DNA of 64,000 bases from Natrarchaeobaculum aegyptiacum. GTDB taxonomy: Archaea > Halobacteriota > Halobacteria > Halobacteriales > Natrialbaceae. Where the stretch lies: contig NZ_CP019893.1 in the NCBI RefSeq assembly GCF_002156705.1, forward strand, positions 3,224,001 to 3,288,000, read 5' to 3'. The notes beneath the pieces are model-generated. The model was not told the DNA's origin, ran no database searches, and saw only the letters and a list, made by a program, of their open reading frames with translations. Below are positions 34,710 to 46,306 of this stretch, piece by piece (within the stretch, counting starts at the first letter, position 1; each line of letters begins with the position of its first letter). The position numbers and the translations under genes were made by a program.

Positions 34710-35729
34710 TCAGTCGTCACCGTTGGGCGCGGGCTGGGTGGGCCGTGAGCCAGCCGACGTCTTCACCACCTCGTAGAGGATGATAGAGGCCACGGCGAAC
34801 GACGAACCCACGAGCAACACGACGCTGAGCACGTCGAGCGTGCCGACGCCGAGCCAGTTAGCGAGTTCGCTGAGTGCGATCCCGGCGCTGGCCAGCACCA
34901 TCATGATGCCGAAGTAGACGATGACGTCGTCTTCCTCGACGACGGTCGTCGCAGCCGAGCCGATCCGTGCGCCCAGTGCGCTGCCGACGAGTAGCAGCGA
35001 GACGACCGCGAGGTCGACGCTGCCGGAGGCCCCGTAGGTGAAGGTGCCGAACGCGCCGGAGAACAGCCCGGCGAACAGGCTCGTCCCGACGGCTACGGTC
35101 AGCGGCGTCCCGATCAGGTAGTAGATCGTGGGCATCCGCATGAACCCACCACCGACGCCGATCAGACCGGAGACGAGGCCGACGATACCGCCAGCCCCCG
35201 AAATCGTCCACAGCGACGCCCGGCCGCCGGAGACCAGCGAGATCATCGGGGGAATTGTGTACGACTGGATCTTCTGGCCGACGGCTGGAATCTCCTCGTC
35301 GTCGACGTCGTCGTCCGCATCCTCGTCCTCGAGGTTGTACGCCCGGCGGAGGAAGATCGCGCCGATCCCCGCCAGCAGGACGACGTAGGCGACCCCCGTG
35401 ACGAGGTTGGCGATCCCCAGCGCCTCGAGAGCGAAGACGAGCCGGCTCCCGAGTTCGATGCCGATCGAGAGCACGACGAACAGCGCCGCGCCGAGTTTGT
35501 AGTCGACCTGCCCGATGTCGTAGTGTTTCATCACGGCGATGACCGACGTGCCGAAGTAAAACGCCAGTCCGCTCCCGATCGCGACGGATGCGGGATAATC
35601 GAGGATCAACAGGGTGGGCGTGATCAGGAACGAGCCACCCATCCCGAAGAAGCCGAACAGGACGCCGACCATGAAGCCGAAGCTCACGAACAGCGCCAGC
35701 AGCGGCAGGCTGAGTCCCAGTAGCTCCAT
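34710..35729 (-). CDS. TauE/SafE-family sulfite (sulfur anion) exporter
   Basis: A 339-aa membrane protein with about eight helices. Both halves contain the family repeat: GFMVGVLFGFFGMGGSFLITPTLL at the start and VGLVSGLIGVGGGFMRMPTIYYL in the middle. The acidic loop around residue 150 (EDEDADDDVDDEE) is outside the membrane. The family exports sulfite, taurine-derived sulfur or related anions. It follows the 48-aa gene without a gap and probably shares its promoter. Position next to thiol and sulfur-trafficking genes supports a sulfur role. Confidence 0.9.
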   Translation of the reverse strand: MELLGLSLPLLALFVSFGFMVGVLFGFFGMGGSFLITPTLLILDYPASVAIGSGLAFYFGTSVIAVMKHYDIGQVDYKLGAALFVVLSIGIELGSRLVFALEALGIANLVTGVAYVVLLAGIGAIFLRRAYNLEDEDADDDVDDEEIPAVGQKIQSYTIPPMISLVSGGRASLWTISGAGGIVGLVSGLIGVGGGFMRMPTIYYLIGTPLTVAVGTSLFAGLFSGAFGTFTYGASGSVDLAVVSLLLVGSALGARIGSAATTVVEEDDVIVYFGIMMVLASAGIALSELANWLGVGTLDVLSVVLLVGSSFAVASIILYEVVKTSAGSRPTQPAPNGDD

Positions 35730-37384: not shown

Positions 37385-37873
37385 ATGAGCTGGACGTCGT
37401 CGATCGATCGGCGAACACTGTTGACCGCCGCGAGTGCCGCCGGGCTCACGTTCCTCGCGGGGTGCCCGGACGACGAGGAGGAACCGGACGACGACGAACC
37501 GGACGACGACGAGCCCGAAGAAGTCGACCTCGAGGAGTGGGAGGACGTCGACGAGTTCTACTTCGAAGGTCGAACCGAGGCGTGGGTCGGGATCGAACCC
37601 GAGATCATCGAAGACGAAGAGAACCCCACCATCACACTCATCGAGGGACAGGAGTACGATTTCCGCTGGGTGAACGGCGACGGCGTCACACACAACCTCG
37701 AGATCCGCGACGACGGTGACGAGATCATCGACGACTATCAGAGCGAAGACGTCACCGAAGAGGGCGAAGAGACGACTCTCGAGGGAGTCACTGCGACAGA
37801 GGAAATGGTGACATACATCTGCACGTACCACGAGGCGACTCAGGTCGGTGACATAACCGTCGAGTCCGAATGA
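37385..37873 (+). CDS. halocyanin-like cupredoxin lipoprotein with a Gln in the axial position
   Basis: A 162-aa Tat lipoprotein (RRTLLTAASAAG, then FLAGC) with an acidic linker and a cupredoxin domain similar to the one at 21695. Ligands: His103 (THNLE), Cys146 and His149 in C-T-Y-H-E-A-T-Q. Where the paralogue has the axial Met167, this has Gln153. Gln is the axial ligand in plant stellacyanins, where it lowers the redox potential. The effect here is an inference. It sits just upstream of a thioredoxin gene in a redox region. Confidence 0.82.
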   Translation: MSWTSSIDRRTLLTAASAAGLTFLAGCPDDEEEPDDDEPDDDEPEEVDLEEWEDVDEFYFEGRTEAWVGIEPEIIEDEENPTITLIEGQEYDFRWVNGDGVTHNLEIRDDGDEIIDDYQSEDVTEEGEETTLEGVTATEEMVTYICTYHEATQVGDITVESE

Positions 37874-37880
37874 CTCTCGG

Positions 37881-37911
37881 TTGTATTGTGTCTTAAGTGC
37901 AAAACTATTTT
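37881..37911 (+). promoter_or_regulatory. sulfur/redox motif plus TATA box before the second thioredoxin
   Basis: TTGTATTG, TGTCTTAAG, TGCAAAAC, TATTTT, ending about 29 bases before the ATG at 37937. This is the best plus-strand example of the motif. Confidence 0.6.
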
Positions 37912-37936
37912 GTCGTCGAGCCCGTATCACCACACG

Positions 37937-38386
37937 ATGAGCGACACCTTCGACGAGGAACGCGAGCGGATTCGCGAACAGAAGAAGCGTGAACTCGAGG
38001 CCCGGCTCGAGAACGGCGAGGATCCACTCGCCGGAGACGACGATGCCGCATCGACGCCGGATACACCGATCCAGATCGACGGGCAGGGTCACCTCGAGCA
38101 GGTGATCGACGACCACGACGTCGTCCTCGTCGACTGTTACGCCGACTGGTGTGGCCCCTGCAAGATGCTCGAGCCGACTATTCAGGCGCTCGCGGCCGAA
38201 ACCGACGCCGCGATCGCGAAGGTCGACGTCGACGCCCACCAGCCGATCGCACAGCAACTCGGTGCTCGCGGCGTGCCGACGCTCGTTCTCTACGCCGACG
38301 GCGAACCCGTCGAACGGATGATGGGGGCCCAGCCACGCCAGACGCTCGAGGGGCTGATCGAACAGCACACCGAGACTGCTGCGTAG
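37937..38386 (+). CDS. thioredoxin with N-terminal helical extension
   Basis: A 149-aa thioredoxin. The first about 45 residues are a charged helix and acidic linker (TFDEERERIREQKKRELEARL). The thioredoxin fold then has the active site WCGPCKM (Cys72, Cys75) and GARGVPTLVLY. It shares with the thioredoxin at 30455 the LEQVIDDHDVVLVD-type entry strand, so the two are paralogues. The ATG at 37937 is set by the TATA box and shared motif upstream. It probably reduces protein disulfides; the extension may direct it to a partner. Confidence 0.93.
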   Translation: MSDTFDEERERIREQKKRELEARLENGEDPLAGDDDAASTPDTPIQIDGQGHLEQVIDDHDVVLVDCYADWCGPCKMLEPTIQALAAETDAAIAKVDVDAHQPIAQQLGARGVPTLVLYADGEPVERMMGAQPRQTLEGLIEQHTETAA

Positions 38387-38587: not shown

Positions 38588-40168
38588 TCACTTACCGTGG
38601 TCGTGGTCGTCGTGGCTGGAATCGTCGCCCCGACTGTGGTCGTGGTCATCGTGGCTGGAATCGTCGCCCCGACTGTGGTCGTGGTCATCGTGGCTGGAAT
38701 CGTCGCCGGTGCTGTGATCGTGATGATGGTGGTGGTTTTGTGATTCATCGCCGCGCCGGACGAACTGCCCGGCGAACGCCCGGTCGACGACCTCCGAGAG
38801 CGCAGGATGGACGTGAACCGATTCGCGGATATCCCAGACGGTCCCCGTCCCTGCAGTCATGGCGACGACGACCTCCTCGATCAGATTCGAGGCCTCGGGG
38901 CCGACGACGTGACAGCCGAGGATTCGTCCATCCGGCTCGATGAGGACCTTCACGAACCCCTCGGCCTTCATCGCGCTCCCGCGGGCGGTGTCCTCGTACC
39001 GGTAGGTTCGCACGGCGTAAGCCTGGTCGTCCTCCCGGAGATCCTGCTCTCGAGCGCCGACACCGGCCACCTCGGGCGAGCCGAAGACCGCGAACGGCAT
39101 CGCCGAGTAGTCGACCGGTTCGAGGTCGTCGCCGAACAGGTTCCGCACGACGGTCGCCGCCTCGTGATTCGCGTTGTGCTTGAGCAGGTACTCGCCGACG
39201 ACGTCGCCGAGCGCCCAGACTCCGTCGGCAGTGGTGCGCAGGTAGTCGTCGGTCACGACGAATCCGTCTGCGTCCGTCTCGACGCCAGTCGCCTCGAGGT
39301 TCAGCAGGTCGGTGTTGGGCCGCCGTCCCGCAGCGATCAGGAGCGCGTCGCCGCTGACGGAAACGTCATCGCGGTCTGCCGGGTCGTGCCAGGCCGGTGG
39401 GTACGGTCGAGCCTCGACGGTCACCTCCCCGTGGGTTTCCGACGCTGCGACGGCCTCGTATCCGGCGTAGACGTCGTACCGGTCTGCGTATCGGTCGGTG
39501 AACGCGGCAGCGACCTCCTCGTCGGCCTCCGGGAGCAGGTTCGGCCGACGACCGACGATCGACACCTCGCTCCCGAAGGTCCCGAAGAAGTGGGCGAGTT
39601 CGGCAGCGATGTACCCTCCGCCGACGACTACGAGCCGTTCGGGCGGTTCCTCGAGTTGCAACGCCTCCGTGCTCGTCAGATAGTCGACCTCGTCGATGCC
39701 GTCGATCGGTGGCATTGCCGGTCGGGTCCCGGCAGCGACGAGGACGGTGTCGGCTCGAGCGCGCTTTGCAGCGTCGGGACCGTCGACGATCTCGATTTCC
39801 CGGTCGTCGACGAATCGTCCTTCGCCCTCGAGCAGGGTGTGCTGGCTCGAGGCCTGCAATCCGTGGTGGATCGACGCGGCGCTCTCTGCGACGTCGTCGG
39901 TCACGTCGCGGACGATGTCGGCGAAGTCGACGTCGCCGACCTCGACGTCGATACCGAACTCGTCAGCGCGTTCGACGGTTTCCATCACCTCCGCGTGGTA
40001 GAGGAGCTTTTTGGAGGGAATACAGCCGCGGTTGAGGCAGGTTCCCCCGAGCGGACCCTTCTCGACGACCGCGACCGATTGGCCCCGGCGGGCAGCGGCG
40101 TTTGCAACGTCGAGTCCCGATCCAGAGCCGATCACGAGAACGTCGAATTCCGCCGGTTCCGATTCCAT
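38588..40168 (-). CDS. pyridine nucleotide-disulfide oxidoreductase (mercuric-reductase/Lpd-like) with His/Asp repeat tail
   Basis: A 526-aa FAD enzyme. It has GSGSG and the redox disulfide GGTCLNRGCIPSK (Cys44, Cys49), a NAD(P) site VVGGGYIAAEL, a GVWALGDVVGEYLLKHNANHEA FAD block, and the C-terminal HVHPALSEVVDRAF with a catalytic His-x4-E-like pair. It is followed from about 478 by a tail of HHHHH and three 13-residue repeats rich in His and Asp. E2 and other complex genes are absent, so a metal or low-molecular-weight disulfide substrate is more likely than lipoamide. It is divergent from a ZIP transporter. Confidence 0.85.
   Translation of the reverse strand: MESEPAEFDVLVIGSGSGLDVANAAARRGQSVAVVEKGPLGGTCLNRGCIPSKKLLYHAEVMETVERADEFGIDVEVGDVDFADIVRDVTDDVAESAASIHHGLQASSQHTLLEGEGRFVDDREIEIVDGPDAAKRARADTVLVAAGTRPAMPPIDGIDEVDYLTSTEALQLEEPPERLVVVGGGYIAAELAHFFGTFGSEVSIVGRRPNLLPEADEEVAAAFTDRYADRYDVYAGYEAVAASETHGEVTVEARPYPPAWHDPADRDDVSVSGDALLIAAGRRPNTDLLNLEATGVETDADGFVVTDDYLRTTADGVWALGDVVGEYLLKHNANHEAATVVRNLFGDDLEPVDYSAMPFAVFGSPEVAGVGAREQDLREDDQAYAVRTYRYEDTARGSAMKAEGFVKVLIEPDGRILGCHVVGPEASNLIEEVVVAMTAGTGTVWDIRESVHVHPALSEVVDRAFAGQFVRRGDESQNHHHHHDHSTGDDSSHDDHDHSRGDDSSHDDHDHSRGDDSSHDDHDHGK
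38597..38713. repeat. 39-base tandem repeat, three copies, encoding the His/Asp tail
   Basis: Three consecutive 39-base units (38597-38635, 38636-38674, 38675-38713) differ at only a few bases. They translate on the complement to H-S-R/T-G-D-D-S-S-H-D-D-H-D units. Near-identity at the DNA level indicates recent expansion or ongoing slippage. Confidence 0.85.
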
Positions 40169-40369
40169 ACGCGGTCGACACCGACCATCCCCATTATGGT
40201 TGTCGCTCGTGAGCACGACCATCTGCTCGACGACGCGGTCGCCGGGGTCACTCGATACAGGGCGTCAGAGAAGACGACAGATCCAGCATGGACGCCCGCC
40301 CTCGTGTACGCAGGACACCAGTTCGCGTCCTTTTATGTACTGGTGGGAGAAACAGCCACGTCGAAAGCC

Positions 40370-41167
40370 GTGTCCCTCCTCGAGAATCTGACGCTCGTGT
40401 TCGTCGCGGGCCTCCTCACCGCGCTGGCGACCGGGGTCGGTGCCCTCCCGTTTTTCTTCTTCGAGGAGATCAGCGACCGCGGAAACGTCGCTCTCTGGGG
40501 ACTTTCGTCGGGGATCATGGTCTCGGCCTCCGTCTTCGGATTGCTCGAGGAGGGGCTGGCCGAAGGGTCGATCGTCGACATCGCCGCGGGGATGGCCGTC
40601 GGTGTCTTGCTCGTCGTCGTCGCCCACAGCGTCATCGTGGACGCCGACGTCGATCCCCGTCAGTACGAGGAAGCCGACTTCAAGAAACTCGTGTTGATCC
40701 TCGGCATCCTCACCGTCCACAGCTTTCCCGAGGGAATCGCCGTCGGGGTCTCGTTCGCAGACCTCGGTCTCGAGGGTGGCGTCTCGTTCCTCGGGTTTAC
40801 AGTGCCGGTGCTCGCCATCTTCATGACGGTCGCCATTTCGATCCACAACGTTCCCGAGGGGACGGCCATCTCGATCCCACTCCGAACGATGGGCGTCTCG
40901 AAGTGGCGAATGGTCGGATGGGCGATCTTCTCGAGTCTGCCACAGCCGATCGGGGCCGTGATCGCGTTCTACTTCGTCACCATCGCCCGCGAGTTCCTCG
41001 CCTTTGGCTTCGGGTTCGCCGCGGGCGCGATGATCTACCTCGTACTGACCGAGTTCATCCCCGAGGCGCTGGATATCGGTGCGGAGTTGCCCCGCGGCGG
41101 GAAGCCAGAACTCGTCGGTGGCGTGCTGGTCGGCGTGGTGGTGATGGTGCCACTCGCGTTCATCTAG
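40370..41167 (+). CDS. ZIP-family metal transporter
   Basis: A 265-aa membrane protein with about eight helices. It carries both ZIP metal-path motifs: HSFPEGIAVG (His117) and HNVPEGTAI (His159). It imports zinc, iron or manganese into the cytoplasm. The start is ambiguous. The GTG at 40370 (VSLLENLTLVFVAGLL) sits about 30 bases past the TATA-like TTTTATG at 40331 and gives the usual ZIP N-terminus. An in-frame ATG at 40198 would add 57 atypical residues. Divergent from the His-tailed flavoprotein at 38588. Confidence 0.85.
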   Translation: MSLLENLTLVFVAGLLTALATGVGALPFFFFEEISDRGNVALWGLSSGIMVSASVFGLLEEGLAEGSIVDIAAGMAVGVLLVVVAHSVIVDADVDPRQYEEADFKKLVLILGILTVHSFPEGIAVGVSFADLGLEGGVSFLGFTVPVLAIFMTVAISIHNVPEGTAISIPLRTMGVSKWRMVGWAIFSSLPQPIGAVIAFYFVTIAREFLAFGFGFAAGAMIYLVLTEFIPEALDIGAELPRGGKPELVGGVLVGVVVMVPLAFI

Positions 41168-41262: not shown

Positions 41263-41724
41263 TCAGTCAGCGCCTGCGGGCGTCGTCTCCGAGGCGGCAC
41301 GCTGACTGCGCCAGTAGCCCTGGACGTAGGCACCGACGAACATGCCGGCGAGCGCCCAGAGGATGGTGACGTTACCGACGCCGAGGCTGGCGTAGGCCGC
41401 GCCGGGACAGATTCCCGAGAGCCCCCAGCCGACGCCGAAGATCGCACCGCCGACGAGGACGTTGCGGTCGAAGGACTTCAGTCGGCGGCCGTATGGCCGG
41501 CCGGTTAGCGGGGCACGATCGCTGATTCGAGGCATCACGGCGAACGCGATGCCGGTGACGATCGCCGCACCGAACATGACGAACAGCAGCCCGAAGTCCT
41601 CGAATTGCAGGAAGTTCAGCACGACCTCGGGGCGGGCCATGTGGCTGAAGCCGAGGCCGAAGCCAAAGATCAGGCCGCCGACGAAGATCAGCGGCATGAA
41701 CAGGGGGTGTCGTTGTTGACTCAT
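41263..41724 (-). CDS. YeeE/YedE-type sulfur transport half-protein (second half)
   Basis: A 153-aa membrane protein with four helices. FVGGLIFGFGLGFSHMARPEVVLNFLQF and GAIFGVGWGLSGICPGAAYASLGVG match the DUF6691/YeeE family, including the conserved cysteine in SGICPGAA. It stands one base after the stop of the other half and pairs with it as a two-subunit thiosulfate or sulfide importer. Bacterial YeeE is a fused protein of both halves. Last gene of the rhodanese-YeeE operon. Confidence 0.9.
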   Translation of the reverse strand: MSQQRHPLFMPLIFVGGLIFGFGLGFSHMARPEVVLNFLQFEDFGLLFVMFGAAIVTGIAFAVMPRISDRAPLTGRPYGRRLKSFDRNVLVGGAIFGVGWGLSGICPGAAYASLGVGNVTILWALAGMFVGAYVQGYWRSQRAASETTPAGAD

Positions 41725-41725
41725 C

Positions 41726-42283
41726 CTACGGACTCACCCCCAGTGCCATCACGATCTGGGCCGTTCCGATCGCGACGATCAGGAACGTGATCACGCCCAC
41801 GATGGACGTCTTCGAGGCGGAGCCGACGCCACAGACGCCGTGACCGGATGTACAGCCCTTGCCGATTCGCGTGCCGATTCCGACGAGGATCCCGCCGAGG
41901 AACAGCCGCCACGGCTGGACGTCAGTCAACCAGAGTGTGACACCCCCGACGTCGTACAGCTGTCCAGTCGTTCCGGACGCGTAGAGGCCGCTCGAGAGCA
42001 GTCCAGACTGGAACGTCAGGGCGTAGACGAACGCGCCCGCGACGATCCCGAGCGTGAAGACGACCCGCCAGTCGCGCGAACTGACGTACTGCTGAAATCG
42101 CGACTGGTCGGAGACGTACGAGAGCGTCGACTCGAGGAACGTGCTCGCGCCGGCCGGAATGCCGGTGCCGAGGTAGATCACGGCGGCCCCGAGGCCGACG
42201 AGCAGTCCCCCGACGGCGTACCGGCTGATCCCAACGGGAAACAGCGACTCGTACAGCGCGGGAGCGAAGAGTTCAGATACCAT
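41726..42283 (-). CDS. YeeE/YedE-type sulfur transport half-protein (first half)
   Basis: A 185-aa membrane protein with about five helices. GGILVGIGTRIGKGCTSGHGVCGVG contains the family's conserved cysteine pair (C-T-S-G-H-G-V-C-G) that passes the sulfur atom through the membrane. It follows the rhodanese-MBL gene by 20 bases and precedes the second half by one base. In bacteria YeeE imports thiosulfate and works with the TusA homologue YeeD; a TusA gene is present at 43741. The substrate here is inferred. Confidence 0.9.
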   Translation of the reverse strand: MVSELFAPALYESLFPVGISRYAVGGLLVGLGAAVIYLGTGIPAGASTFLESTLSYVSDQSRFQQYVSSRDWRVVFTLGIVAGAFVYALTFQSGLLSSGLYASGTTGQLYDVGGVTLWLTDVQPWRLFLGGILVGIGTRIGKGCTSGHGVCGVGSASKTSIVGVITFLIVAIGTAQIVMALGVSP

Positions 42284-42303
42284 TCGGCTGTGAGATGGGA
42301 GCG

Positions 42304-43497
42304 CTAGTCACCGGCCAGGGATTCCTGGCTTGCGGCGCAGTTGTTCGGCCCGAGTTCGAGTTCGAACGCCTCGTCGTCGTCGGCCTCGTTCTGGCCGAGG
42401 TTCGTCGGGATGATCGTCTCGTAGTTGGCCGGACGCGGCGGCATGTCCGAGAGGATCAGGTCGACGAACTCGTCTTTCGCCATCGAGAGGGCGTCCATCT
42501 CGTCGACCAGCTGGCCGATCGGGGCGGTGTAGGTACCGTCCTCGGCCGGTTCGGCGGCGTCACTGAAGTGTGCGCCACCGATCAACGTCTCGTCGGGCAG
42601 CGTCAGTACGCGCTCGTGGAGCGAGTCGTGGAGCATCTGGGCAGCTTCGGGAGCACCGTCGTCGCCCTCCTCGAGGTCTGGACGGGCGACGCTCTCGACG
42701 AACAGGCCGTCGCCGGTCGCGAGCAGCGAGTCGTCGATCAGATACGACGTCATGTCGGTGGTGTGTCCGGGCGTGGAGACGGCCTCGACGGTGATGTCGC
42801 CGACGTTGAACTCGTCGCCGTCCTCGGCGAGGGTCACGTCGGCGGCGTAGGTCGCACCCCGGTCGGCGGATTTGCTCGGGATGACGCCCTCGACACCCTC
42901 CTCGACGAGTGCTCGCACGCCCGAGATGTGGTCGGCGTGGATGTGGGTGTCGATCGCGTATTTCAGCTCGACGCCGAGTTCGTCGGCGTCCTCGAGGTAG
43001 CGGTCGGTGAACGCACGGAGCGGGTCGATTACGGCCGCCTCGTCGCCGTCGTAGACGAAGTAGCCGAGACAGCCACTCGAGGGGCGCTGGTACTGGAGCA
43101 GCGTGCCGGCCCCGTCGTAGCGCTCGACTTCGACGGCCTCGTAGATCTTCGCCCAGCCGTTCATTCCGTCCTCGAGGTGGTGGACGTCGTAGCCGCGGTC
43201 TTTGAGCGTGGCGGCGACGAACTCGCTGGCACCACCTTTCGCACAGAGGACGGTGACCTCACGGTCCTCGGGGACGGCTGCGAGGATCTCCTCGTCGATC
43301 TCGTCCTCGAGGAATTCGAAGTACGGGACGTTGATCGATTCGACGGTCTCTCCGTCGATCTTCCACTCCTCGTAGTCGCCCTGCATCCGTGCGTCGAGAA
43401 TCGTCACGTCCTCGCCGTCGTCGATTCGTGCTTTCAGCTCGGCCGGGGTGACCGCGTCGACGGTCACGTCGGGCATCGGAAAGTCCATCTCGTCCAT
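42304..43497 (-). CDS. rhodanese-metallo-beta-lactamase fusion (persulfide dioxygenase/sulfurtransferase type)
   Basis: A 397-aa protein. An N-terminal rhodanese domain (about 10-120) has its catalytic cysteine at 85 in VLCAKGGASEF. A metallo-beta-lactamase domain follows with DTHIHADHISG, the T-H-x-H-x-D-H metal motif, then STPGHTTDM and GDGLFVES. Bacterial proteins with these two domains, in either order, oxidise or transfer sulfane sulfur. The ATG at 43497 is supported by a TATA box and sulfur motif at 43531-43569; upstream in-frame starts cross the motif. It leads the operon with the two YeeE halves. Confidence 0.92.
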   Translation of the reverse strand: MDEMDFPMPDVTVDAVTPAELKARIDDGEDVTILDARMQGDYEEWKIDGETVESINVPYFEFLEDEIDEEILAAVPEDREVTVLCAKGGASEFVAATLKDRGYDVHHLEDGMNGWAKIYEAVEVERYDGAGTLLQYQRPSSGCLGYFVYDGDEAAVIDPLRAFTDRYLEDADELGVELKYAIDTHIHADHISGVRALVEEGVEGVIPSKSADRGATYAADVTLAEDGDEFNVGDITVEAVSTPGHTTDMTSYLIDDSLLATGDGLFVESVARPDLEEGDDGAPEAAQMLHDSLHERVLTLPDETLIGGAHFSDAAEPAEDGTYTAPIGQLVDEMDALSMAKDEFVDLILSDMPPRPANYETIIPTNLGQNEADDDEAFELELGPNNCAASQESLAGD

Positions 43498-43530
43498 GGT
43501 GTACACTCCAGTGTACCGGTTGCACTCACT

Positions 43531-43569
43531 TAAGGGTTTGCATGGTCTTTCGAAGACTGTACAATACAA
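43531..43569 (-). promoter_or_regulatory. sulfur/redox motif plus TATA box before the rhodanese-YeeE operon
   Basis: Complement: TTGTATTG, TACAGTCTTCGAAAGACCA, TGCAAAC, CCTTA. The spacer is about 10 bases longer than in the other sites and holds the palindrome GTCTT-TCG-AAGAC (plus-strand reading). Confidence 0.55.
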
Positions 43570-43700
43570 CCGATCCGCTTCGTTCACGTATGTGCGGAAA
43601 AGACTAGTTATAGAGCCCACAGAACGCGACTGTGAATCCCGTCGTATCGTGGCTGTTCACGAGGAGGGCAATAACCGGTACGTTTTTATAGTCGTGGTTA

Positions 43701-43723
43701 GTATTGTGGAATAGGTCCAATAC
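43701..43723 (+). promoter_or_regulatory. GTATTG...CAATAC inverted repeat before tusA
   Basis: GTATTG-N11-CAATAC ends 17 bases before the tusA ATG. It shares GTATTG with the regulon motif but lacks GCAAAAC. It may be an operator at or near the transcription start; a TATA-like TTTTTATA lies at 43683-43690. Confidence 0.5.
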
Positions 43724-43740
43724 AGACTCGAAGATCGACC

Positions 43741-43986
43741 ATGACTACAGAATACGACACCACCGAGACGCTCGACGTGAAAGGACTGTCCTGCCCAATG
43801 CCCGTCGTCAAAGCGAAGCAGGCGATCGACGACCTCGAGGCAGACGACGTACTGGAAGTCGTCGCGACCGACTCCGGCAGTATGAGTGACATTCAGGGGT
43901 GGGCCGACGGAACTGACGGCGTCGAGCTGCTCGAGCAGGTCGAGGGTGACGACACCTACACGCACTACGTGAAGAAGACCGATTGA
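43741..43986 (+). CDS. tusA: TusA-type sulfurtransferase
   Basis: An 81-aa SirA/TusA fold protein with the sulfur-carrying cysteine in LSCPMPVVKAKQAID (Cys18) after LDVKG. It carries persulfide sulfur between donors and acceptors. The strand VVATDSGSMSDIQGWADG matches the second conserved block. It is followed four bases later by a DsrE-like protein, the usual partner. Expected donors here are the rhodanese and YeeE proteins. Confidence 0.93.
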   Translation: MTTEYDTTETLDVKGLSCPMPVVKAKQAIDDLEADDVLEVVATDSGSMSDIQGWADGTDGVELLEQVEGDDTYTHYVKKTD

Positions 43987-43990
43987 GACG

Positions 43991-44581
43991 ATGAGTACCG
44001 ACAACCCACCGGCGTCGGCCGACGGACCCGACGGCGAGATCGACCCGGCCGAGGTGCAGGCGTTGCTCGAGCGCGTCGAGGAACTCGAACAATCTGTCGC
44101 AGATATCGACGAAGGCGACGGTAACAAGAAGATGACTATCGTCGCGACCAAGGGGACCCTCGATATGGCCTACCCGCCGTTGATCCTCGCGAGTACGGCC
44201 GCCGCGTTCGACTGGGACGTCGTCGTCTTCCACACCTTCTGGGGACTCGACATCCTCCACGAGGAGACCTCGAAGAACCTCAAGCTCAGCGCGGTCGGTA
44301 ACCCGAACATGCCGGTTCCCAACGCGGTCGCCGCGCTCCCCGGAATGGACGCGATGGCGACGAAGATGATGCGCAAGAAGATCGACGACAACGACACCGC
44401 CACGATCGAGGAGCTGATCGACCTCTCGCTCGACCTGGGCGTCGACCTGCAGGCCTGCCAGATGACGATCGAGCTGATGGACTACGACGAAGACGAGTTT
44501 TACGACGGCGTCACCACCGGCGTCGGCGCGGCCACGGCACTCCAGCACATGGCCGAGTCGGACGTCCAGCTTCTCATCTGA
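43991..44581 (+). CDS. DsrE/DsrF-like (DsrE2-type) sulfur-relay protein
   Basis: A 196-aa protein. Residues about 1-40 are a helical coil (EVQALLERVEELEQSVADID); the rest matches the DsrE2 group: TIVATKGTLDMAYPPLILA, DVVVFHTFWGL, and the conserved cysteine in LQACQMTIELM (Cys156). DsrE2 proteins relay persulfide with TusA and rhodanese and have sometimes been called peroxiredoxin family/DrsE. It is co-transcribed with tusA. Cytoplasmic with a possible membrane association. Confidence 0.9.
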   Translation: MSTDNPPASADGPDGEIDPAEVQALLERVEELEQSVADIDEGDGNKKMTIVATKGTLDMAYPPLILASTAAAFDWDVVVFHTFWGLDILHEETSKNLKLSAVGNPNMPVPNAVAALPGMDAMATKMMRKKIDDNDTATIEELIDLSLDLGVDLQACQMTIELMDYDEDEFYDGVTTGVGAATALQHMAESDVQLLI

Positions 44582-44613
44582 ACGCTCTCCAGACCCTGCA
44601 GGACACACGATCC

Positions 44614-44844
44614 ATGTATCGACACTCCCCTAGCTTTCGCGTCGTATCGGCCGTTGCGGATGCCGACGACGAGGATCTCGTCGACCTCGAGCCGCCCCTG
44701 TCCGAGGTCGTCGATCCGACGGCACTCGACCGGCTCTTCGAAGCCACTGCCACCAGTGACAGATCTGGCGAGGGGCGTGTCACGTTCCGGTACCGTGGCC
44801 ACGACGTGATCGTCCGATCGGACGGCGACGTCGAACTCGAGTAA
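44614..44844 (+). CDS. stand-alone HalOD1 output-domain protein
   Basis: A 76-aa protein matching the haloarchaeal HalOD1 domain: LSEVVDPTALDRLF, then RVTFRYRGHDVIVRSDGDVEL with the V-x-F-x-Y-x-G-x-x-V signature. HalOD1 domains usually follow receiver domains; solo forms are common and of unknown function. It follows the DsrE-like gene at 32 bases on the same strand and may be in the same transcript. Confidence 0.78.
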   Translation: MYRHSPSFRVVSAVADADDEDLVDLEPPLSEVVDPTALDRLFEATATSDRSGEGRVTFRYRGHDVIVRSDGDVELE

Positions 44845-44898
44845 TTCTGTTAGCTCCGGCTTTCGAGTGCCGTCGATCGCCGTACTGCATCGCTATTC

Positions 44899-44929
44899 TT
44901 TGTATTGGGAAATCTGCGAAATACTTTAC
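44899..44929 (+). promoter_or_regulatory. sulfur/redox motif plus TATA box before the CoA-disulfide-reductase-like gene
   Basis: TTTGTATTGGGAAATC, TGCGAAAT, ACTTTA, with ATACTTTAC centred about 28 bases before the ATG at 44954. GTATT and AATAC form an inverted repeat across it. Confidence 0.55.
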
Positions 44930-44953
44930 TTGCTGGTCGACGACCTCGACAGT

Positions 44954-46306
44954 ATGGACGACCCGTTCGTCATCGTTGGTGGTGACGCCGCCGGAATGAG
45001 TGCCGCGAGCAAGGCCAAACGCGAAAACCCGGATCTCGAGGTGATCGTCTTCGAACGGGGTGAATGGGTGTCGTACGCCGCCTGCGGGATGCCCTACTAC
45101 GTGAAGGGAACGGTCGACGACCTCGACGACCTCGTCGCCGTCACTCCCGAGGAGTTCCGCGAGGGGCGTGACGTCGATCTCAGAACGAACCACGAGGTCG
45201 TCGCCATCGATCCCGACACACAGACGGTCACCGTCGAGGCCGACGGCGAGCAGTTCGACCAGCCCTACGGTGCACTGTTGATCGGCACCGGTGCCCGCGC
45301 AATCCAGCCCCCCTTCGACGGACTCGACCTCGAGGGCGTGTTCACGCTCCGGAGCATGGACGAGGCCGACGCGATCGAAGACGACGTCTCCGCACACGAC
45401 CTCGAGACGGCCGCCATCGTCGGCGGCGGCTACGTGGGCGTCGAGATGGCGGAAGCGCTCACGGAACGGGGTATCGAGGTCTCGATCTACGAGATGCTTC
45501 CGCAGATCCTCCAGCCCTTCGGCGAGGAGACGGCGAGTGTCGTCGAGGATCACCTCGAGGACCAGGGCGTCTCGGTGCACCTCGAGACGGCCGTCGACGG
45601 TTTCGAGGGTGACGACCGCGTCGACGAGGTCCTGCTCGACGGTGGTGACCGGGCAGAACCGGCCGACCTCGTCGTCGTCGGCGTCGGCGTCGCCCCGAAC
45701 GTCTCCCTCGCCGAGGAGGCGGGGATCGAACTCGGCCCGACGGGTGCCATCGCGACCGACGAGTACGGCCGGACGAACTGCGACGACGTCTACGCCGCGG
45801 GTGACGCTGCGGAGGCGACGAACGTCGTCACTGGCGAGCCCGATCACGTTCCACTCGCGCTGACGGCCAACCGCGCGGGTCGGGCGATCGGTACCACGGT
45901 CGCCGGCGAGCCGACGCCGACTGGCGGGACGGCAGGGACGGCCATCGTGAAGGCCTTCGACCTCGGTGCCGCGCGAACGGGGATCATCGACGAAGAGCGC
46001 GCTCGCGATGCGGGGTTCGACCCCGTTTCGGTGACGATCGAAGCACCCACGCGCCCGCACTACTACCCCGGGGCGACGGAACTGACGATCACGCTCGTGG
46101 CCGACCGGGAAACCGAACGGGTCCTCGGCGCGAGCCTGGTCGGACGCGACGGCGCGAAACGCATCGACACGGTCGCCACCGCCGTCGACGCCGAACTGAC
46201 CGTCGGCGAACTGCTGAACCTCGACCTCGCGTACGCGCCACCGTTCAGCCCCGTCTGGGATCCGGTCCTGACTGCGGCGAAGGTACTTTCGGGAACACTC
46301 GAGTAG
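44954..46306 (+). CDS. FAD-dependent CoA-disulfide reductase / NADH oxidase-like protein
   Basis: A 450-aa flavoprotein. FVIVGGDAAGMSAASKAKR (FAD site), the single redox cysteine in SYAACGMPYY (Cys44), a NAD(P) site AAIVGGGYVGVEMAEAL, and the FAD block DDVYAAGDAAEATNVVTGE. A C-terminal dimer domain follows (PHYYPGATELTITLVAD). The one-cysteine arrangement is that of CoA-disulfide, CoA-persulfide and polysulfide reductases and NADH oxidases. Its promoter has the sulfur/redox motif, so a disulfide or persulfide substrate is favoured. It ends the sulfur cluster. Confidence 0.9.
   Translation: MDDPFVIVGGDAAGMSAASKAKRENPDLEVIVFERGEWVSYAACGMPYYVKGTVDDLDDLVAVTPEEFREGRDVDLRTNHEVVAIDPDTQTVTVEADGEQFDQPYGALLIGTGARAIQPPFDGLDLEGVFTLRSMDEADAIEDDVSAHDLETAAIVGGGYVGVEMAEALTERGIEVSIYEMLPQILQPFGEETASVVEDHLEDQGVSVHLETAVDGFEGDDRVDEVLLDGGDRAEPADLVVVGVGVAPNVSLAEEAGIELGPTGAIATDEYGRTNCDDVYAAGDAAEATNVVTGEPDHVPLALTANRAGRAIGTTVAGEPTPTGGTAGTAIVKAFDLGAARTGIIDEERARDAGFDPVSVTIEAPTRPHYYPGATELTITLVADRETERVLGASLVGRDGAKRIDTVATAVDAELTVGELLNLDLAYAPPFSPVWDPVLTAAKVLSGTLE

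Follow-up and report, generated by a model that had tools for sequence, protein, structure and literature searches.

In the pyridine nucleotide-disulfide oxidoreductase superfamily, the catalytic His-Glu pair of one subunit serves the active site of the partner subunit. The C-terminal domain of a subunit completes or covers the active site of the other one, and in mercuric reductase (MerA) Hg(II) reaches the dithiol of the opposing monomer on a flexible pair of C-terminal cysteines (PMC4500099). Lipoamide dehydrogenase is strongly inhibited by zinc, with an IC50 of about 0.15 µM, and glutathione reductase and thioredoxin reductase are inhibited as well (PMC8145363). For haloarchaea, a review suggested that many annotated "lipoamide dehydrogenases" are really bis-γ-glutamylcystine reductases (GCRs) (PMC7278568). 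Low-complexity His-rich stretches of variable length are known from Hpn-like proteins, the tails of HypB and UreE, and the His loops of ZIP transporters and P1B-ATPases. In the locus described here, in contrast, such a stretch sits on a flavoprotein disulfide reductase. No description of a His-rich disulfide reductase of this kind was found in the open literature searched, which is a weak negative result.

The DNA analysed (the window) is a stretch of 64,000 nucleotides, positions 3224001–3288000 of a 3.93-Mb haloarchaeal chromosome. Its interval 38588–41167 comprises two genes, encoding a reductase and a ZIP-family transporter. The reductase gene occupies positions 38588–40168 on the minus strand and encodes 526 amino acids from the likely start MESEPAEFD. 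The longest ORF, with the start at 40222, encodes 544 residues; the shorter variant was preferred because the alignment with orthologues begins at residue 17–19 of the longest ORF. A 786-aa ORF from 38807 runs antisense through the reductase and was discarded as an artefact. The core contains the Pfam domains Pyr_redox_2 and Pyr_redox_dim (the dimerisation domain), and pLDDT of its AlphaFold model is mostly above 95. The redox-active disulfide CLNRGC (C44 and C49; 40022–40039, minus strand) is invariant in an alignment of 41 archaeal and bacterial relatives, as are H454 and P455 from the region of the catalytic pair His454...Glu459 (HPALSE; 38792–38809, minus strand), E459 being nearly invariant. 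The only other cysteine of the protein is Cys419. The FAD and NAD(P) domains, the dimerisation domain, the CxxxxC disulfide and the C-terminal His-Glu pair are those of group I of the superfamily, and the description of the protein as a flavoprotein disulfide reductase, given initially in a sequence-only reading, is borne out by the Pfam domains, both motifs and the AlphaFold fold. The nucleotide-binding motif is GGGYIAAE...VGRR (GxGxxA plus Arg-Arg) vs GGGYIGME...VVEM (GxGxxG plus Glu) in the aligned haloarchaeal dihydrolipoamide dehydrogenases (E3); the NAD-type fingerprint, GxGxxG with an acidic residue after β2, is absent from the window enzyme. GxGxxA with Arg-Arg is established in the superfamily as the NADPH type, and we infer from these motifs that the reductase probably prefers NADPH.

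The core is thus an NADPH-type group-I disulfide reductase, with the fold nearest to that of mycothione reductase. The mycothione reductases from Rhodococcus (8qcj) and M. tuberculosis (8rx5) were the top PDB match by both sequence and fold, with the core identity of 39% and, for 8qcj, TM of 0.93 on the target; the CxxxxC disulfide and the His-Glu pair are common features. However, the cut-offs of the mycothione reductase models were missed (TIGR03452, 363.5 bits with the cut-off of 635.65; NF005884, 406.4 bits with the cut-off of 501), and the actinobacterial relatives L226 and L229 have no His tail, unlike the window enzyme. Haloarchaea are not known to contain mycothiol. The glutathione reductase equivalog cut-off was not reached either.

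The protein had also been called mercuric-reductase-like. This part of the description stands at the level of the superfamily, as the fold family, the CxxxxC disulfide and a mobile C-terminal segment with metal ligands at the equivalent position of the chain are shared. Below that level it fails: the vicinal C-terminal Cys pair, which serves as a criterion for MerA (PMC8261052), is absent, His454 is kept at the position of Tyr or Phe in MerA, and the MerA model TIGR02053 gives 329.9 bits, the cut-off being 454.45. The MerA identity was rejected on these grounds.

The similarity to E3 includes the fold, the active site and the database name, given that the protein scores 807 bits (cut-off 634) against NCBIfam NF004946, a subfamily named dihydrolipoyl dehydrogenase. 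In contrast, the E3 equivalog TIGR01350 is missed (356.6 bits, cut-off 408.8), the nucleotide motif is of the NADPH type and no 2-oxoacid dehydrogenase genes are found nearby. Judged by these features, the window enzyme is not a typical lipoamide dehydrogenase.

With GCR the enzyme shares the host group, the general chemistry and the proposed disulfide substrate. The Halobacterium salinarum genome, recognised by a 100% match to bacteriorhodopsin, encodes no tailed orthologue; at E ≤ 1e-20 it has two such reductases, an E3 encoded beside an E2 gene (L041) and L043. By elimination and distribution, L043 is likely the characterised H. salinarum GCR; its homologues occur in 231 of 391 genomes, in agreement with the distribution of GCR given in the review (PMC7278568). 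However, L043 is tail-less and only 31% identical to the window enzyme, and the GCR identity of the latter was rejected, the likely H. salinarum enzyme being too remote. Both the tailed enzyme and GCR are present in 73 genomes, the tailed enzyme only in 72, GCR only in 158, and neither in 88. This anti-correlation is mild (Fisher p 0.008, ignoring phylogeny) and too weak to conclude that the tailed enzyme has taken the place of GCR. The window genome has no L043 orthologue, and the candidates for reduction of small-thiol disulfides in it are the tailed enzyme and a tail-less paralogue (C1:1776850–1778295). An ordinary lipoamide dehydrogenase or haloarchaeal GCR with an incidental tail would agree with the NF004946 score and with the renaming suggested in the review. 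We consider it improbable, given the NADPH-type motifs, the lack of nearby E1 and E2 genes with another E3 encoded beside an E2 gene elsewhere in the genome, and the fact that 73 of the 145 genomes encoding the tailed enzyme also encode the dissimilar L043.

The tail itself spans residues 474–526 (38588–38749, minus strand), beginning about 20 residues past the catalytic His454, and contains 15 His, 17 Asp and no Cys. The last 53 codons of the gene encode DESQN-HHHHH-(DHSTGDDSSHDDH)(DHSRGDDSSHDDH)(DHSRGDDSSHDDH)-DHGK. The HHHHH run (residues 479–483; 38720–38734, minus strand) is followed by three tandem units of 39 bp, 13 aa each (38681–38719, 38642–38680 and 38603–38641; the whole array at 38603–38719, minus strand), encoding DHSxGDDSSHDDH. 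Pairwise identities of the units are 34/39, 33/39 and 38/39 bases, and TRF reports an array at 38597–38707 with the period of 39, 98% matches and the score of 215, the highest in the window; the claim of five histidines and three nearly identical His- and Asp-rich 39-base units was therefore correct. His makes up 28% of the tail vs 2.5% of the core (binomial P ~3e-12), so that the stretch is far above background, as expected of a His-rich domain; the same was found in the haloarchaeal loci. The tail is predicted to be disordered, with pLDDT below 50 from residue 476.

Relatives of the reductase were found at E ≤ 1e-120 in 99 of 125 genomes of the host family, a count that includes a related haloarchaeal paralogue of about 50% identity, which has no tail. 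Most of these 99 genomes encode close orthologues with 65–82% identity. In the whole class, a close orthologue is present in 145 of 391 genomes, and for 101 of these orthologues the C-termini were read in the loci. Following the conserved end RAF.G.F.RGG, 99 out of 101 proteins terminate in a tail with HxH or HH; the other two (L104 and L109) lack His altogether. At least four His residues among the last 20 are observed in 78/101 reductases vs 1/1108 other predicted genes in the same loci. The tails vary from GGHDH or GGHSH to more than 100 residues with 28–31 His. The commonest residue across all tails is His, and none contains Cys, as would suit a metal site that has to avoid disulfide formation with the active-site cysteines.

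Tandem repeats were detected by TRF in many tails, and all but one of their 76 periods are divisible by three. Near-perfect arrays have different units in each lineage (39, 30, 30 and 24 bp in the window, L083, L115 and L149, respectively), and the repeat units differ completely between species, each species being represented by one genome. Judging from these arrays, the tails expand by in-frame tandem duplication with a lineage-specific unit. As the arrays differ and the periods are multiples of three, the tails have been repeatedly rebuilt while their His content was kept, and such free turnover of the sequence at a maintained His content fits metal binding. Slippage could also have produced an acidic, flexible low-complexity end having no role in metal binding and retained for solubility in salt or by neutral drift. 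The tail is indeed Asp-rich and easily duplicated, its sequence is not conserved, and haloarchaeal proteins are acidic. Nevertheless, the most frequent residue, and the one that varies least, is His and not Asp or Glu, some tails have hardly any acidic residue (GGHSH, GHRH), the other two reading frames do not yield His, the tail is kept in nearly all orthologues, and non-halophilic archaea have it too. All this makes an origin from slippage alone very unlikely.

Outside haloarchaea, named genomes were scanned using the alignment, and this gave relatives down to about 33% identity. His tails occur on relatives with 36–40% identity from Methanomassiliicoccales, Bathyarchaeota, Thorarchaeota and Thermoplasmata, as well as in one groundwater Thaumarchaeota bin and one Chloroflexi bin; many of the non-haloarchaeal tailed relatives come from metagenome bins. 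No tail was found in relatives from Woesearchaeota, Micrarchaeota, Nitrososphaeria, most Chloroflexi and other bacteria. On the phylogenetic tree, tailed proteins fall mainly into two distant groups with tail-less lineages between them. Well supported branches force at least seven changes of the tail state, a number inflated by the threshold of three His, which scores the minimal haloarchaeal tails as absent, and the tree is compatible with either gain or loss of tails. The near-universal presence of tails in close relatives and their occurrence in archaeal cousins argue that the tail is no peculiarity of this locus but probably a genuine part of the enzyme that binds metal.

The second gene of the interval (40370–41167, plus strand) is separated from the reductase gene by a divergent intergenic region of 201 bp (40169–40369). 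It has a GTG start and encodes a 265-aa protein scoring 50.9 bits against PF02535 (cut-off 35.1), with the motifs HSFPEG at residue 117 and HNVPEG at residue 159. Orthologues align across residues 1–265, and BbZIP is its solved relative. The assignment to the ZIP metal importer family made in the sequence-only reading is thus confirmed; the ZupT equivalog cut-off is missed (89.8 vs 252). Before the ZIP gene, a perfect 7-bp inverted repeat, CACCAGT-N16-ACTGGTG (40316–40345), surrounds a TATA-like box. This palindrome was not seen upstream of 20 ZIP homologues and hence does not speak for conserved regulation; the idea that the two divergent genes are controlled together was rejected.

The implied association of the tail with the transporter did not hold in general. 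While 99/101 orthologues are tailed, ZIP genes lie within 6 kb in only 10/101 loci, and short tails are mostly found beside a gene encoding a 118-aa protein. Hence, the tail is tied to the enzyme and not to ZIP. All orthologues with a ZIP gene within 6 kb have long tails with 7–31 His, so that the finding named in the sequence-only reading as refuting it, tail-less orthologues beside ZIP genes, was not made. A ZIP or Zn/Cd-type P1B-ATPase gene is present within 6 kb in 15/101 loci, always in one long-tailed clade. This clade consists of 30 members including the window enzyme; ZIP genes are at most 6 kb away in ten of its loci, Zn/Cd-family P1B-ATPase genes are present in five, and the 118-aa gene is absent. 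The ZIP gene may be in tandem just upstream, divergent (as in the window), opposite at 3 kb, or remote at 5 kb. In the host family, a ZIP gene was found within 5 kb of 8/32 long-tail-clade reductases (~0.1 expected) and within 40 kb of 16/32 (~0.8 expected) vs 0/46 other reductases at either distance. This proximity supports a metal context, in one clade only: the association of long tails with metal genes is restricted to these 30 members and is not phylogenetically independent. Independent-pair tests yielded no phylogeny-free association of tail length with metal genes; the Mann-Whitney p of 6e-5 ignores relatedness. Most short-tailed orthologues, down to GGHDH, have no metal gene nearby. 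In one locus (L062, 4925–5875), the ZIP gene immediately precedes the reductase gene in the same orientation, and its product has a His-rich loop of its own, DHDHDHDHDTEH.

The nearby ZIP genes bear on one further explanation, in which the tail works as a switch operated by metal or as a metal store. Binding of metal would alter the activity, oligomeric state or stability of the enzyme, tuning thiol reduction to metal supply, or the abundant enzyme would serve as a reservoir. Long tails with 15–31 His exceed the need of one site, and known His-rich proteins and domains store nickel. On the other hand, minimal tails with a single HxH have little storage capacity, and no regulator or metalloenzyme is consistently linked to the reductase. 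We consider such a role unlikely.

The conserved 118-aa gene is present in 44/101 haloarchaeal loci, usually directly downstream of the reductase gene, and its product is likely a functional partner of the short-tailed enzymes. It has no Pfam or NCBIfam match, and the DsrE-like label, assigned by eye only, is unproven. The protein carries a CDYC or CDFC motif (L082, 7624–7980; L118, 9708–10064; and 42 further loci). In the window, the reductase is surrounded by an island of sulfur and thiol genes (34710–35729, 37385–38386 and 41263–46306) encoding a TauE/SafE exporter, a halocyanin-like lipoprotein, a thioredoxin, a two-gene YeeE-type sulfur transporter, a rhodanese and metallo-β-lactamase (persulfide-dioxygenase-like) protein, TusA, a DsrE-type protein and a CoA-disulfide-reductase-like flavoprotein. 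A second lipoamide dehydrogenase (E3) gene, located beside E2, is at positions 1–750 and extends beyond the left edge of the window (genome positions 3223383–3224750). In L054 (8406–9692), L056, L057 and L061, genes for SCO1/SenC, a TlpA-like redoxin and a CcdA-like membrane protein are found near the reductase, and a Zn/Cd-type P1B-ATPase gene is on its other side.

The function that we tentatively propose, regarding it as a little short of evenly balanced, is that of a reductase whose metal-binding His/Asp arm acts as a local metal buffer near the dithiol. The substrate of the enzyme may be a small disulfide or persulfide belonging to the thiol system of haloarchaea, and the disordered tail would be the metal-binding arm. 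Because each C-terminal domain lies over the active site of the neighbouring subunit and about 20 residues separate the catalytic His from the start of the tail, the position of the tail in the chain suggests that it would hang the His cluster beside the reduced dithiol of the partner subunit. There it would trap a divalent transition metal, such as Zn(II), before the dithiol is poisoned or, alternatively, hand over a metal already bound at the dithiol. Metal binding, the choice of metal and the protective role are what we infer from these data, and the simplest interpretation is that the tail buffers Zn, or a metal like it, close to the dithiol. The metal inference of the sequence-only reading is plausible.

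The tail might also deliver metal, as the His counterpart of the MerA Cys pair, to the dithiol of the partner for reduction or release, Cu(II) or a thiol-bound metal being examples. Its position in the chain equals that of the mobile Cys pair passing Hg(II) to the opposing monomer in MerA (PMC4500099), Tn501 MerA is among the fold matches, and genes for SCO1, thioredoxin and halocyanin-like proteins adjoin the reductase in several long-tail loci. However, the His454-Glu459 pair of thiol-disulfide enzymes is kept at the place of Tyr or Phe in MerA, Zn, the metal to which the ZIP and P1B neighbours point, cannot be reduced, and the tail length, from 3 to ~100 residues, is unusual for a precise arm; we regard delivery as quite improbable. 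More broadly, archaea may have repeatedly given a disulfide reductase a His arm reaching across the dimer interface, shielding the dithiol or passing metal. The same reading can be worded as a metal-coupled branch of disulfide reductases in which His does the job of the Cys of MerA. In either wording, we regard it as possible yet doubtful.

The observation of the tail is real and more general than the initial reading had it, the link to ZIP being clade-specific. The conservation of the tail across archaea appears to be undescribed in the literature searched, and for this reason we consider the finding to be of moderate to good interest. A tailed reductase should purify easily on a metal column, and such proteins may be natural His-tagged contaminants in haloarchaeal metal-affinity work. 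Databases name them dihydrolipoyl dehydrogenases, an annotation in which a metal-thiol link is absent. Retention of the tail by 99/101 orthologues, together with its occurrence in four further groups of archaea, suggests that this link between metal and thiol redox control has been selected.
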